A DNA stretch of 20,987 nt from a virus, in the IMG/VR virus record IMGVR_UViG_3300025840_000324, positions 1 to 20,987 of that record; one strand, written 5' to 3'. Numbering within the stretch: the stretch's first letter is position 1; the number at the start of each line of letters is the position of its first letter. Positions 2,334-20,160 of the stretch are shown one piece after another. The notes beneath the pieces are model-generated. The model made no database searches. It had not been told where the DNA came from and saw only the letters and a program-made list of their open reading frames with translations. The position numbers were made by a program, and so were the translations under genes.

Positions 2334-2966
2334 ATGAAAAAAGCATTACTAGCACTTTTATGTGCTTTTCCACTTGCCTCACAAGCATTTTTGACTGCAA
2401 GTACTGAAACAGACATTAACTATTATCATGATTTTTCTTTGAGTGTTGACCAGTTCAAATTGAGTCATAATCAATATGGTGACTGGGGTTTAAATGAAAC
2501 TCGTATCGGTTGGGGCGGCCTTTCAGCAATCACAAGCGATACTTTAGATTTTGGTATTTCTTATGAAACCACCTTTTCCGCTGGTCTAGATGGCAATGAG
2601 TTTGAAATTAAATCTGGTATGCATATGCACAACGACGTTATCTTTTCGTTAGATACTTCATTTTTCGTTGGTGGATTGAAAGTTCTACCTTCAGCAGACT
2701 GGAATCTTTCTAGTTCTGCAATGGATGCAGAAGTTGGATTTGAATATAAATTGTCAAGTGTTGACGCAGTAACAACTCTTTTCTATGATGTAAGTTCTAT
2801 TGCTTATAATGGATCAGAGTTTTCTTTAGGATATAACTTTCATATAAATGACGCTATTTCCGTCAAACCTAATATGGTAATTCCTTTCGATAGTGAATGG
2901 GATCAGGGTGATATCCGAGCTGGACTTTCTATTAATGTAGCATTTGCAACAAATCCAGGACAATAA
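2334..2966 (+). CDS. Secreted beta-rich protein, outer-membrane-barrel-like
   Basis: The 210-residue protein starts with a clear Sec signal peptide, MKKALLALLCAFPLASQA, with likely cleavage after residue 18. The mature part has no hydrophobic helix. It is made of alternating short strands with aromatic girdle-like residues (FGISYETTF, LSLGYNF-type segments) and ends with a strand (AGLSINVAFA). This pattern is what small outer-membrane beta-barrels or porin-like proteins show, so I infer export to the periplasm and perhaps insertion in the host outer membrane. A role in superinfection exclusion or envelope change is speculation. Translation starts at ATG 2334 with AGGAG five bases upstream, and a late promoter box lies at 2273-2280. 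The stop codon overlaps the box that precedes the tmRNA. Confidence 0.75.
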   Translation: MKKALLALLCAFPLASQAFLTASTETDINYYHDFSLSVDQFKLSHNQYGDWGLNETRIGWGGLSAITSDTLDFGISYETTFSAGLDGNEFEIKSGMHMHNDVIFSLDTSFFVGGLKVLPSADWNLSSSAMDAEVGFEYKLSSVDAVTTLFYDVSSIAYNGSEFSLGYNFHINDAISVKPNMVIPFDSEWDQGDIRAGLSINVAFATNPGQ

Positions 2967-2969
2967 ATA
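2962..2969 (+). promoter_or_regulatory. T4-like late promoter box before the tmRNA gene
   Basis: AATAAATA matches seven of eight positions of the late consensus. With the usual spacing the transcript would start near 2975, just before the acceptor piece of the permuted tmRNA, so the box could drive the tmRNA precursor. It overlaps the TAA of the upstream gene (2964-2966). Confidence 0.5.
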
Positions 2970-2973
2970 AATC

Positions 2974-3168
2974 GTGGATAAAACTGTAGACGGTAAAGGA
3001 GTAGACGTTGCGGACGGCGGGGCAGTACCGCCCACCTCCACCAAATCATTTTTAGGCTATGATGTTCATGGTAATCGCCAGTTTCCACATGACTGGTATT
3101 ATACTGAACAAGAATGGAATAGAGGAGTAGGTTGGGGCAAAGTACCACCAGAACGAATTAAAAAGTAA
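2974..3168 (+). CDS. Possible 64-residue ORF overlapping the tmRNA acceptor piece
   Basis: A GTG at 2974 opens a frame that runs through the whole acceptor piece and the intervening segment and stops at 3166-3168, one base before the coding piece begins. The part encoded by the intervening segment reads like protein: GYDVHGNRQ, PHDWYYTEQEW, then GWGKVPPER. There is no other start codon in this frame and no Shine-Dalgarno, but a late promoter box ends four bases before the GTG, so a leaderless message is conceivable. It may simply be an open frame in a non-coding RNA precursor. I do not recognise the product. Confidence 0.3.
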   Translation: MDKTVDGKGVDVADGGAVPPTSTKSFLGYDVHGNRQFPHDWYYTEQEWNRGVGWGKVPPERIKK

Positions 3169-3420
3169 TGGGGGTGACCTAGTTTCGACGGAGCGAATGA
3201 AAGTTTACAAGAGGTTTTTGATACATAACTATAAACGCCAATGATGACGTTTACTTTCAAGAATATGCCTTAGCGGCTTAATTTTTGACGGGGCATGGGC
3301 ACCGCCTTGATATCCAAAGGGCCCATCTTAAAATATATGAACAGTAATCAAAGTGGTCTATGCCGAGAACGCCACACATGACGAACCGCTGAACCATAGA
3401 TAAGCGTGTTCCCTTTACGT
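2975..3420 (+). ncRNA. ssrA: Circularly permuted two-piece tmRNA (alphaproteobacterial type)
   Basis: tmRNA rescues stalled ribosomes and adds a degradation tag. The gene is permuted: the acceptor piece comes first and ends in CACCTCC-A-CCA at 3033-3043; the coding piece starts with GGGGGTG at 3170-3176. The two strands form a complete 7-bp acceptor stem with one G-U pair, followed in the coding piece by the TTCGACGG block typical of tmRNA (3184-3191). The T arm is GGCGG/CCGCC at 3016-3020 and 3028-3032 with loop GGCAGTA. A seven-base match, GTAAAGG at 2993-2999 with CCTTTAC at 3412-3418, can join the two pieces near their outer ends. The tag reading frame is at 3237-3281. Bases 3044-3169 are the intervening segment that would be removed. 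The exact ends are inferred. SmpB-binding determinants were not checked. Confidence 0.9.
3237..3281 (+). other. tmRNA tag-peptide reading frame
   Basis: The frame GCC to GCT (3237-3278) followed by TAA (3279-3281) encodes ANDDVYFQEYALAA. It begins with the usual Ala resume codon followed by AND and ends in ALAA, the C-terminal degron read by ClpXP/ClpAP in bacteria. The middle (VYFQE) differs from the textbook E. coli tag. Confidence 0.88.
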
Positions 3421-3424
3421 TATT

Positions 3425-3643
3425 ATGAACCAAAAAATTACACCAAAAAAGTTTTCTATTATTATAGAGGAGTTAGTAAGAACTAAAAGACTAACTTATC
3501 TTGAAGCTGTAATGTATTATTGTGAACAAAATGGTTTAGAGGCACATACCATTACACGATGGATTGACAAATCTATGCGTGATAAGATACAATATGATGC
3601 AGAACAATTAAATTATCTACCGAAAACGAGTTCATTATTTTGA
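3425..3643 (+). CDS. 33: Late-transcription coactivator, gp33-like
   Basis: This 72-residue helical protein has the pattern of T4-family gp33 from marine phages: a helix IIIEELVRTKRLTYLEAVMYYCEQNGLEA, then the ITRWIDKSMRDKIQYDAEQLNYL segment and a hydrophobic C-terminal tail ending SSLF (segment names abbreviated here). gp33 bridges the host RNA polymerase beta flap and the sliding clamp gp45 and works with sigma factor gp55 at late promoters. Its place directly before gp59 matches the T4 order 59-33 region and supports the assignment. The ATG lies about five bases after the probable end of the tmRNA and has no Shine-Dalgarno. It is shorter than T4 gp33 (112 residues). Confidence 0.7.
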   Translation: MNQKITPKKFSIIIEELVRTKRLTYLEAVMYYCEQNGLEAHTITRWIDKSMRDKIQYDAEQLNYLPKTSSLF

Positions 3644-4890: not shown

Positions 4891-4965
4891 TCCTCAGTAG
4901 CTCAGTGGTAGAGCAGACGGCTGTTAACCGTCCGGTCGGTGGTTCGAATCCATCCTGAGGAGCCA
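4891..4965 (+). tRNA. trnN: tRNA-Asn (anticodon GTT)
   Basis: A complete 75-base cloverleaf with encoded CCA: acceptor stem TCCTCAG/CTGAGGA, D arm GCTC-loop-GAGC, anticodon stem GACGG/CCGTC with loop CTGTTAA (anticodon GTT), variable CGGTC, T arm GGTGG-TTCGAAT-CCATC, discriminator G and CCA at 4963-4965. It starts on the base after the deaminase stop codon, so it must be cut out of a shared transcript unless it has its own promoter; none is evident. Confidence 0.97.
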
Positions 4966-16466: not shown

Positions 16467-18410
16467 ATGGCTTATACAGGACTAGGATTAACTCAAAAAC
16501 CTACTTTGGAGGGTATTAAAGAGGCAGGTTTAGCTCTAGCTGGAGGTGTTGGTGCCACCATCACCGGTGTTGGTGGACTTGCTCTTGGTGGAGCAGGACT
16601 AGTTGCAGGATCTTTAGCAAACGCATTTGGTGCAACAGCAACACCATATCTCGTTGGCCTTGGTGCTATGGGAGCAGCAGGTAAGAAAGGATTTAATATG
16701 TTTGATAGATCCTCAGATGACAATACAATAAAAAAAGATACTGCTACTCCAGAACTTCAACAGGAGATGTCCAAACAGACTCAATATGGATTATTAAGTC
16801 TGGATAAGTTAGATGACATTCACAAAGACTTAGCAGAAACAAGATCGATTCTGGTAGTTCAAGATCCGGCTTCTCAGGCAAGAGAAGAAGCATTAGACGA
16901 ACAAACAAAGAACAAAGAACTTGTTTCTACTATTATGGGTATAGGTAAAGGTGTAGATTCAGGTGGTAAAGGAAAAGAAAAAAGTCTTTTAGAGAAATTA
17001 TTGCCCTTAATAGGACTAACTGCGTTGACGGCTGCTTTGCCTAAGTTCTTAGAAGATTTTGATAAATGGTCAAATACAATCTCTGAAGCTGTTGATAATA
17101 TCTCAGAGTTTTTAAATGATTTAGATAACTTCTTTGAGGGTATGGGTATTGAGTTTGGTGGTCCAGCGGCCTTGGGTGCAATACGTGGTGCAAAAACTGC
17201 AACACGAAGAACCCAGAGAAAGTTAAGAACACCTCGTGGCGGTCTTAGTCGAGGTACAGGTACTAGACGAGCAAGACCAACTTCTAAAGAAACACGAAAG
17301 AGATATCAAAGAATATACGGCTCCGATGCAGCTAGAAATAGATTTCAAGGTCAGGTAAGAAACCCTCGAGGCGGCCTTGAACGAGGTACAGGCACTAGAT
17401 CGGCAAGACCAACTTCGACTCCAAAAAGAGGAGGACCAAGAAGATTAGCTCTCAAGTCTTTAGCGTTACCGCCACCAAAACCACCTAAATCTAAAAGACC
17501 ATCTAAAATTAATTCTACACAGTTTTTGTTGGATAGTAAACCACAACCAGTATCACCAGAGATTAAACCAACAACGTCTACACCTAAAAGAGGCGGTAGA
17601 GTAAAACAAGGATTTCAAAAGGCCTTTGATATAGCTCGATTTAAAAATTTACCTAGAAGTGCATCATCAAGTTACATGGCTTCAGTTGATCCTGCACAAA
17701 GAGGAAAAGCATGGAGTAAAATTGCAGCTTTAGATAAATGGTTGGCAACAAATAAAGTTGCTCAAGCAGTTCTCAAGCCATTTGCAAAAGCAGCTTGGTT
17801 TATATCTGCTGCCTTTGCTGCATATGATATTAGTGAATTGATAAGTCAATGGCTGAAAAATAAATCTGAAGGTAATGATTGGCCTTTTGCAGGCGATGAA
17901 CCAGAAGATAAAGTTTTTGTTGATGGATTGAAAAAGATGGCAGGAACTTATGGAGGAGCCTATCTCGGAGCAATTGCTGGAGGTATGATAGGTAGTTTGA
18001 TTCCTGTTCCTTTTGTCGGAACTGTAGCAGGTTCAATTGTAGGAGGACTAGCAGGATCAATGCTAGGTGAAAGTCTTGCAGGGGGTATACAAGGTACAGA
18101 TAGGCTCAACAAGATAAAGGCTGAGAAGAAAGGTATCTTGATGGAGTTAAACTCCGAATTTTCACCCGAAGATTCGATGAATGGAAGAGATGAACAATTA
18201 ATTCAACGACTGGAGGCTATTGACGAAGAAATCAAAGTTTTAGAGTCAGGTCCTACGGATGAAGCATCAACAGTGGTAATAGTGAATAATGTGGATAATA
18301 CACAAAATGTTAATTCTGCAACATCAACAACGACAAATACTACAAACACGGAAAATAAAGCTCCAATGCAAATCTACGGCGAAGAAGATATGTCTTATAT
18401 GTCACCTTAG
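16467..18410 (+). CDS. Large tail protein, paralogue A (tape-measure-like candidate)
   Basis: The 647-residue protein starts with a glycine-rich hydrophobic segment (MAYTGLGLTQKPTL then ALAGG and GLALGGAGLVAGSLANAFGAT) that is nearly identical to the start of the next gene. A helical part with EKLLPLIGLTALTAALPKFL follows, then a very basic Arg/Pro/Lys region (residues about 245-390) holding two copies of PRGGLxRGTGTRxARPTS 44 residues apart. Next come hydrophobic helices and a glycine-zipper-like stretch (GGAYLGAIAGGMIGSL, GSIVGGLAGSMLGESL) and an Asn/Thr-rich tail. Size, low-complexity regions and position after gp26 suggest a gp29-like hub or tape-measure role, but no motif proves this. 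Confidence 0.6.
   Translation: MAYTGLGLTQKPTLEGIKEAGLALAGGVGATITGVGGLALGGAGLVAGSLANAFGATATPYLVGLGAMGAAGKKGFNMFDRSSDDNTIKKDTATPELQQEMSKQTQYGLLSLDKLDDIHKDLAETRSILVVQDPASQAREEALDEQTKNKELVSTIMGIGKGVDSGGKGKEKSLLEKLLPLIGLTALTAALPKFLEDFDKWSNTISEAVDNISEFLNDLDNFFEGMGIEFGGPAALGAIRGAKTATRRTQRKLRTPRGGLSRGTGTRRARPTSKETRKRYQRIYGSDAARNRFQGQVRNPRGGLERGTGTRSARPTSTPKRGGPRRLALKSLALPPPKPPKSKRPSKINSTQFLLDSKPQPVSPEIKPTTSTPKRGGRVKQGFQKAFDIARFKNLPRSASSSYMASVDPAQRGKAWSKIAALDKWLATNKVAQAVLKPFAKAAWFISAAFAAYDISELISQWLKNKSEGNDWPFAGDEPEDKVFVDGLKKMAGTYGGAYLGAIAGGMIGSLIPVPFVGTVAGSIVGGLAGSMLGESLAGGIQGTDRLNKIKAEKKGILMELNSEFSPEDSMNGRDEQLIQRLEAIDEEIKVLESGPTDEASTVVIVNNVDNTQNVNSATSTTTNTTNTENKAPMQIYGEEDMSYMSP
17232..17417 (+). repeat. 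Two 54-base direct repeats in paralogue A
   Basis: Bases 17232-17285 and 17364-17417 encode PRGGLSRGTGTRRARPTS and PRGGLERGTGTRSARPTS. The copies differ mainly at third positions, so the protein repeat has been kept by selection or the duplication is not recent. The offset is 132 bases (44 codons). Confidence 0.8.
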
Positions 18411-18420
18411 GAAAATGTAA

Positions 18421-20160
18421 ATGGCTTATACAGGACTAGGATTAACTCAAAAACCTACTTTGAAGGGTATTGGAGAGGCAAGTTTAGCTCTAGCTGGAGG
18501 TATTGGCGGACTTGCTCTTGGTGGAGCAGGACTAGTTGCAGGATCTTTAGCAAACGCATTTGGTGCAACACCATATATTGCCGGATTAGGTATACTTGGA
18601 GCATCAGCCAAAAAAGGATTTAATTTTTCGTTTGAAAAGGAAGATACTGCGAGATCACTTGGATTGGATGAAAATTCTAGTCCATCTGAGGTTGAAGCCG
18701 GAGAGGTTTCCATCTTAAATAAAATTGCAGCAGAAAGTAGTTCGTTATTAGAAACTGTAAAAGATAATCAAATTTCTCCATCTCAAGAAAGAGAATTTCA
18801 GATGGATAGAGACAAAAATCATCAGGAATTAATCTCGGCTTTTTCTAATATAAGTCTTGTGAGTATTTCTGATGATGAAAACAAAGATCCCTGGTGGAAA
18901 AAAATATTTAATCTCTTATCTGGATGGAAATTACTTGTTGCACCATTTGTAAAGGGAATGGCAACTTTCTTAGCCAGAATGTTACTTGTGTTTACAAGTC
19001 CTGCCTTGTTGGGTATTGCTGGTGCACTTCTGATAATGACAAAATGGAAGACAATCAAGAAAACAATAAAAGGAGCAATTTACAAAATAAAAGTTTGGAC
19101 CAATAAAGTTTTGAGTTTAATTCCTGGAGCTCCTCTATTAGAAATTGGAGAAAATCCTAACGCAACACCTATGGATGCAGGAGAGTTCGTCAATACAACT
19201 ACAGGAGGTGATGAAGGATTTAAAGTTGTAGAAAATCCTAACGCAACACCTATGGATGCAGGAGAGTTTGTCACCACAACAGGCGTCGGAGAATTTAAAG
19301 ACGGTGGATCGTTTATTGTAGATGGTGATGATGGTGGAGTTGATAAGCTTATGGTAGTGTTTAATGCAACCAAAGGAGAAAAGGTTACAGTAGAAACACC
19401 AAAACAACAAAAAGAAAACATGAAGTCTCCCACAATGCTAGGAGATAAGTACGTTGATATGGATACTATCGAAGGCCGTAGAGAATTTTATTTCAATGCT
19501 ACAGAAGAAGAATGGACACAGATGTATGTTAATATGGAAAATCAAGGAATGGGACTTGCATCAAGTGCTGCTCAAATGCAAGATACCTCAAAACTTGAAG
19601 TTTTAGATTATATGTTTGGTATAAGCGTGGAGGGACAACAATCAGTACAAACATCAATGGTAAATGATGACATAAAGGAAAGTTTTGGTGATTGGACAAA
19701 AATTGTAAATTCCATTGGTGATGTTACTCAAATGCAATCAGGTGAACTTATGGATACTAGAACAGGAAGTGAAGAATCTGTTACTGGCGAAAATATGAAA
19801 ACAATTTCCTGGGATGATTGGAAAGGAGATGAAGATAAATTAAGGTCGTTGGGAGTATACAATAACGAGGACATCAATAGATACAAACAGATAACAGGTT
19901 CTAGTTTTATGGATACTAGCGGCGGCCGAGGAAGAATGGTTGAAGGTCGATATGACAGAATTAATCATTTAAAACAAATTCAGAGAACTATTGAAACACC
20001 AAAAGTAGAGTCATTTAAACTAAAACCAAAAGTTGAGGAAATAACAAACTATATTGATAACTCGTCCTCGAAAAACCAGAAGTCAACAAAAACTTATGAG
20101 TTTGGTGGCGGTTTCTCTGTAACAGATGGACACACACTATCACCACTTACAAACAGGTAA
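18421..20160 (+). CDS. Large tail protein, paralogue B
   Basis: The 579-residue protein shares its first 70 or so residues with paralogue A, including a 63-base DNA stretch that is identical in both. After that the sequences diverge. It has a segment with WWKKIFNLLSGWKLL, hydrophobic helices (FVKGMATFLARMLLVFTSPALL, split here) around residues 170-200, a two-copy repeat ENPNATPMDAGEFV, and a long polar C-terminal part with FGGGFSVTDG near the end. The first half fits an inserted or tape-measure-type tail protein and the second half is unassigned. It begins ten bases after the first paralogue ends, with AGGA as a distant ribosome-binding site. Confidence 0.6.
   Translation: MAYTGLGLTQKPTLKGIGEASLALAGGIGGLALGGAGLVAGSLANAFGATPYIAGLGILGASAKKGFNFSFEKEDTARSLGLDENSSPSEVEAGEVSILNKIAAESSSLLETVKDNQISPSQEREFQMDRDKNHQELISAFSNISLVSISDDENKDPWWKKIFNLLSGWKLLVAPFVKGMATFLARMLLVFTSPALLGIAGALLIMTKWKTIKKTIKGAIYKIKVWTNKVLSLIPGAPLLEIGENPNATPMDAGEFVNTTTGGDEGFKVVENPNATPMDAGEFVTTTGVGEFKDGGSFIVDGDDGGVDKLMVVFNATKGEKVTVETPKQQKENMKSPTMLGDKYVDMDTIEGRREFYFNATEEEWTQMYVNMENQGMGLASSAAQMQDTSKLEVLDYMFGISVEGQQSVQTSMVNDDIKESFGDWTKIVNSIGDVTQMQSGELMDTRTGSEESVTGENMKTISWDDWKGDEDKLRSLGVYNNEDINRYKQITGSSFMDTSGGRGRMVEGRYDRINHLKQIQRTIETPKVESFKLKPKVEEITNYIDNSSSKNQKSTKTYEFGGGFSVTDGHTLSPLTNR
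19150..19268 (+). repeat. 81-base offset tandem repeat in paralogue B
   Basis: A 38-base block at 19150-19187 recurs without change at 19231-19268, offset 81 bases (27 codons), and both encode ENPNATPMDAGEF. The near-perfect DNA identity suggests a young duplication or ongoing conversion inside a flexible, Gly/Asp/Thr-rich linker. Confidence 0.85.

Follow-up and report, generated by a model that had tools for sequence, protein, structure and literature searches.

The window analysed here, the whole of a virus fragment record of 20,987 bases, contains between position 2974 and about 3330 what its sequence identifies as a circularly permuted, two-piece tmRNA gene, and the 126-nt intervening sequence that separates the two pieces appears to be protein-coding, in a frame that enters from the acceptor piece. 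The reading that we favor, with a probability of roughly 70%, is that this is the permuted two-piece tmRNA gene of a marine-type T4-like phage and that its precursor doubles as an mRNA. The features of the region are as follows.

2962..2969, + strand: late-promoter-like box AATAAATA (NATAAATA), 4 nt before the GTG
2974..3043, + strand: tmRNA acceptor piece, 3' half of the tRNA-like domain (ARAGORN, cmscan, covariation; 5' end inferred)
2974..3168, + strand: 64-aa ORF, GTG to TAA, overlapping the acceptor piece, the CCA and the intervening sequence
3016-3032, + strand: T-arm, within the acceptor piece
3033-3039, 3040 and 3041-3043, + strand: CACCTCC, A and CCA, the end of the acceptor piece
3044..3169, + strand: intervening sequence, 126 nt, between the CCA ending at 3043 and G3170
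3170..3196, + strand: 5' half of the tRNA-like domain, GGGGGTG.. TTCGACGG (ARAGORN, cmscan)
3197..3226, + strand: coding-piece strands of P2, whose pairing partners lie in 2974-2998 (covariation)
3237..3281, + strand: tag reading frame ANDDVYFQEYALAA, closed by the stop TAA (ARAGORN)
3289..3326, + strand: 3' pseudoknot-like stems, 3289-3294/3304-3309 and 3295-3300/3321-3326
3425..3643, + strand: gp33-like late transcription coactivator (phrog_254, E 2.2e-20)

An earlier note on this DNA had proposed a phage-encoded permuted two-piece tmRNA and had suggested a covariance-model search as a check. ARAGORN predicts a permuted tmRNA spanning 2951-3372 and reads its tag as ANDDVYFQEYALAA; in cmscan, both models score above their cut-offs: RF04321 (tmRNA_permuted) reaches 106.2 bits against the curators' cut-off of 47 (E = 3.5e-20), and RF01849 (alpha_tmRNA), the clan model kept among the matches listed, reaches 59.6 bits against 50 (E = 2.2e-14), matching model positions 69-184 of 355 only. 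These calls, together with the covarying helices described below, uphold the proposal. The 7-bp acceptor stem described in that note, CACCTCC-A-CCA with GGGGGTG, is likewise present, CACCTCC (3033-3039) pairing with the GGGGGTG (3170-3176) that opens the coding piece ahead of TTCGACGG, and its third pair is G.U (G3.U70). G3.U70 is the alanine-tRNA identity position. The tRNA-like domain also has the TTCGAC D-loop. In a set of 16 related tmRNAs from which the spacers were taken out, the T-stem is paired in all 16, with covariation, acceptor-stem pairs, counted where letters are present, are kept in 14 to 16 of the 16 sequences, and P2, which joins both pieces, shows compensatory changes at several positions. 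Toward the 3' end, the stem 3289-3294/3304-3309 was computed on 18 sequences, and by eye the stem 3295-3300/3321-3326 changes from ATGGGC/GCCCAT to ATGAGC/GCTCAT in the relative L368. The suggestion that the phage has its own tag holds, ANDDVYFQEYALAA being encoded at 3237-3281, and tags across tmRNAs of the window's family end in LAA. A degenerate tag pattern gave 0 matches in a one-genome-per-species collection, and the tag therefore looks phage-specific within the collection searched. At the DNA level, no phage record showed similarity to the tmRNA region. The range first given for the gene, 2975-3420, extends a little too far in the 3' direction: the pseudoknot-like stem ends near 3326, and after it come a separate structured element at 3353-3413 and then gp33 at 3425.

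By protein families the contig is T4-like, with PhoH, an exonuclease, a gp33-like regulator, a gp59-like loader, ThyX and a gp32-like protein, as well as head closure, baseplate and tail tube families; no integrase was found among the 20 window proteins scanned. The tmRNA gene lies between a 210-aa ORF without an assigned family (2334-2966) and gp33 (3425). The placement exonuclease-tmRNA-gp33 is kept among relatives and in the phages Melnitz, Mosig and HTVC008M, and tblastn finds a like gene order in most of 34 tmRNA-bearing loci, the window included, with two lacking a match. In the same contig, ARAGORN finds a tRNA-Asn (GTT) at 4891-4965, directly after a dCMP deaminase-like gene.

The earlier note had treated the intervening sequence as a gap to be processed out, yet it is here that the gene is most unusual. 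Relative to the RF04321 model, most of the 126 nt is an insertion. A protein alignment search begun with two sequences found 16 loci and one built on ten sequences found 43; these 43, L131, L190 and the window make up the 46 loci examined. ARAGORN calls a permuted tmRNA in 40 of the 46, amounting to 30 unique sequences; three more (L390, L395 and L396) have tmRNA parts visible by eye, L369 and L375 are cut short by the contig edge, and L388 stops just past the match. Permuted tmRNAs with unusual spacers can escape ARAGORN, as at L395:4174-4530 and L390:1563-1820, where the parts were seen by eye. The 64-aa frame recurs in the 30 unique phage tmRNAs, with the GTG in the same place in 30/30, 70 nt before the end of the CCA, and the diverged relative L004 retains the frame with 48% identical residues. 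No stand-alone gene copy of the spacer protein was seen among the 46 loci.

Substitution patterns in the spacer are those of a coding sequence. Among 10 representatives, the spacer read in frame has pS 0.65 and pN 0.29 (pN/pS 0.44) and no in-frame stops, whereas the other frames give pN/pS of 1.06 and 1.42, with stops. Differences by codon position number 524, 411 and 754, an excess at the third position over the second, and, with each of the six relatives compared, random placement of the window's differences reached the observed residue identity in 0 to 5 of 2000 trials. One lineage has spacer lengths of 101, 113, 125, 140, 143 and 170, all 2 modulo 3; in another they are 127 and 142, both 1 modulo 3, as is 232. 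This frame-specific amino-acid selection speaks against a mere gap. In the acceptor-piece part of the frame, pN/pS is 1.10, so protein-level selection is not visible there. Given the coding signal in the spacer and the retention of RNA pairing and tags, the RNA appears to be conserved, and so does the spacer protein. The ORF stop, TAA at 3166-3168, lies 1 nt ahead of the expected RNase P site. We considered this position as a special feature and discarded it: a stop triplet is found there in 19 of 41 short-spacer and 68 of 91 long-spacer tmRNAs, and because it is common in the short-spacer genes the stop position alone means little. In 27 of 30 unique relatives the frame continues past the RNase P site, which it does not do in the window type.

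The spacer protein has no match in phages, PHROGs, Pfam, NCBIfam or PDB, except one in PDB at E 1.4, and in genome contigs 57 pattern stretches yielded 0 relatives. With the window protein as query, the AF2 model was poor (pLDDT 50.8), too poor for a fold search. For 21 members led by L377 (a 119-aa model), residues from about 61 to 100 are predicted to be helical with block mean pLDDT of 73-86; these residues are spacer-encoded, the ends encoded by the tRNA-like RNA mostly fall below 50, and the helices lie mostly in residues absent from the window protein.

The window's spacer contains no in-frame ATG, GTG or TTG, and upstream the 64-aa frame is bounded by a stop at 2968-2970; GTG 2974 is thus the remaining candidate start. 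No Shine-Dalgarno sequence is evident before it. The box NATAAATA is found 4-6 nt ahead of the GTG in 27/30 unique related tmRNAs; within the window as a whole the box is not enriched (7 on the + strand against 5.5 expected). This motif is a cyanophage late promoter (PMC2984593), and late promoters of T4 lie about one helical turn upstream of the start site (PMC2988020). Taking the box and the T4 spacing together, the first transcribed base would be that of GUG 2974 or one close beside it. The conservation of GUG may be structural, because it pairs with CAC in P2.

In the mechanism that we propose, transcription from the NATAAATA box, beginning at or beside GUG 2974, would give a precursor with two mutually exclusive fates. 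In one, the tRNA-like domain would fold, host RNase P would cut before G3170, and exonucleases would trim back to CCA 3043, so that the spacer is discarded and the two pieces are held together by the acceptor stem and P2. The product would be alanylated by way of G3.U70, as read from the sequence alone, and with host SmpB would free stalled ribosomes, adding the ANDDVYFQEYALAA tag. In the other, a ribosome would start at the 5' GUG before folding or cutting, either without a leader or by coupling to the preceding ORF, which ends at 2966, and would make the 64-aa protein. Since the two fates exclude each other, protein output would be linked to slow or failed tmRNA maturation. In most relatives, where the frame is open across the RNase P site, cutting a precursor under translation would by deduction create a non-stop message, whose spacer protein would then receive its tag from the tmRNA in the making, a self-limiting switch. 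In its fullest form the proposal is of a dual-coded RNA, in which the pre-tmRNA would open with the leaderless GUG start of a late mRNA, the T-arm, discriminator and CCA of a functional tRNA-like domain would be read as codons, maturation and translation would exclude each other in each molecule, self-tagging would act as the switch, and phages would repeatedly have used the spacer as a slot for small proteins. We hold this form tentatively, at somewhat less than even odds.

As phage two-piece tmRNAs are already in print, the window tmRNA taken alone is a further example. Of 18,146 phage genomes, 402 were reported to carry tmRNA, and 53 of the 133 unique structures were two-piece (PMC9004378); a second survey counted 79 unique phage tmRNAs and, in the part of it considered here, notes a tRNA-Ala within one permuted spacer and describes no protein gene there (PMC11915505). 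That survey also describes tmRNA genes with cargo, namely group I introns bearing homing-endonuclease ORFs (PMC11915505). They resemble the window in that another gene is lodged within a tmRNA gene; however, the window's spacer encodes a small protein with no endonuclease match, in frame across mature RNA. With the permuted tmRNA of Alphaproteobacteria (RF01849, RF04321) the window shares the piece order, the tRNA-like domain and an LAA-ending tag, but differs in its 126-nt spacer with a conserved ORF. A close likeness is to the ssrA of the T4-like marine phage Melnitz (MZ577097), a permuted tmRNA that occupies the same position ahead of gp33 and is reported as a two-piece tmRNA upstream of the late coactivator gene (PMC9004378). 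Like that of the window, the Melnitz spacer holds an ORF; in Melnitz it is unannotated, has 54 aa, follows GGAGAA and reaches into the 5' tRNA-like half (L400:864-1028, MZ577097.1), with a longer relative in L271. Unlike the window, Melnitz has the tag ANDNYVPVDYALAA, an ORF that starts inside the spacer, a protein unrelated by eye, and a glutamine riboswitch reported downstream (PMC9004378). The SAR11 phages Mosig and HTVC008M also have a permuted tmRNA near gp33; in contrast to the window, their spacers are short and by eye contain no ORF. In HTVC008M the permuted tmRNA (L398:617-958 of KC465899.1; tag ANFNEYALAA by ARAGORN) is unannotated and overlaps the ends of two annotated CDS.

Proposed roles for phage tmRNAs are amino-acid recycling and upkeep of the translation machinery (PMC9004378). 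For the window, keeping translation going or redirecting degradation, as the earlier note had it, is a plausible role, and a nearly identical function was proposed for the Melnitz tmRNA (PMC9004378). The same note took the permuted type, as a trait of alphaproteobacteria and a few other lineages, to point to the host. Among the matches listed the clan model kept is the alpha model RF01849, but Melnitz has an alpha-type tmRNA yet infects the gammaproteobacterial OM43 clade (PMC9004378), and the host argument is therefore weak.

Spacer ORFs were surveyed in 167 unique permuted tmRNAs, with enrichment counted on non-redundant cases and compared with shuffles. Among spacers of 130-260 nt, 11 of 25 have an ORF of at least 35 aa against 2.5 expected; at 90-130 nt, 5 of 35 have at least 25 aa (2.2 expected), and at 60-90 nt, 1 of 28 has at least 20 aa (1.2 expected). 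This enrichment is indicative, as homologues of one family are counted several times. An ORF of at least 20 codons is found in 65 of 91 spacers, a raw count without a null that includes frames open by RNA constraint. Four families of nested small ORFs stand out, strongly hydrophobic, with signs of amino-acid selection and by eye unrelated to the window protein: A (nine: L302, L281, L294, L311, L352, L358, L266, L331 and L206), with an in-frame pN/pS of 0.38; B (four: L207, L225, L229 and L143), with 0.33; C (six: L226, L197, L217, L218, L235 and L174), with 0.56; and D (L272 and L342), with 0.27 from two sequences only. Phage tmRNAs are catalogued as non-coding except for the tag, and the spacer has been left blank even in the cultured Melnitz. 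Our search of the open-access literature found no report of a tmRNA spacer that encodes a protein. If spacers do encode proteins, they hold an overlooked set of small phage proteins, one of them physically tied to the ribosome-rescue system, and the question is opened of whether a tRNA-like RNA can double as coding sequence and how the cell chooses between the uses. For the nested form of spacer ORF, Melnitz is available in culture.

Such nested ORFs lend themselves to a different account of the window: a real spacer protein might be translated from a separate, non-canonical start within the spacer, or its transcript might leave out the acceptor piece, tmRNA and protein then being just packed neighbors as in families A to D. 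ORFs in L302, L281, L311 and Melnitz do start after the CCA, often with a Shine-Dalgarno-like sequence; against this, the window's spacer offers no in-frame start codon of the usual kinds and the upstream GTG is constant among relatives, and we regard this account as unlikely. A shade less probable still is an ordinary phage permuted tmRNA with a non-coding spacer, its open frame due to chance or to constraint on the RNA. The lack of visible amino-acid selection in the tRNA-like parts fits that explanation, as do the spacers below 70 nt in 44 of 135 non-redundant phage tmRNAs, but it does not sit well with the frame-specific pN/pS, the third-position excess and the modulo-3 spacer lengths, nor with the independent presence of ORFs in the spacers of other phage families. 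Prophage ssrA fragments are known (PMC9004378), and the locus could in principle be a decayed fragment, of host or prophage origin, that does not function as a tmRNA. We consider this very improbable in view of the acceptor stem, T-arm, P2, LAA tag end and CCA kept across diverged phages, and of the T4-like context without an integrase among the proteins scanned.

Between the tmRNA and gp33, the structured RNA element at 3353-3413 is built of three helices forming pseudoknots (GUGG/CCAC, UCUAUG/CAUAGA and CGCU/AGCG) and has an invariant GAUA. It is also present in L365, L367, L370, L382, L386, L387, L395, L397 and L088; 92.8% of cells are paired, 5 of 14 pairs are changed on both sides, and the covariation score was reached in 0 of 500 shuffles. 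No glutamine riboswitch or other Rfam family was found between the tmRNA and gp33 at E up to 5. The element is possibly a leader switch of gp33, at the place of the Melnitz glutamine riboswitch. Farther along the window, two tape-measure-like ORFs (16467-18410 and 18421-20160) adjoin and have near-identical N termini (MAYTGLGLTQKPTL..), and the pair is likely a tandem duplication.
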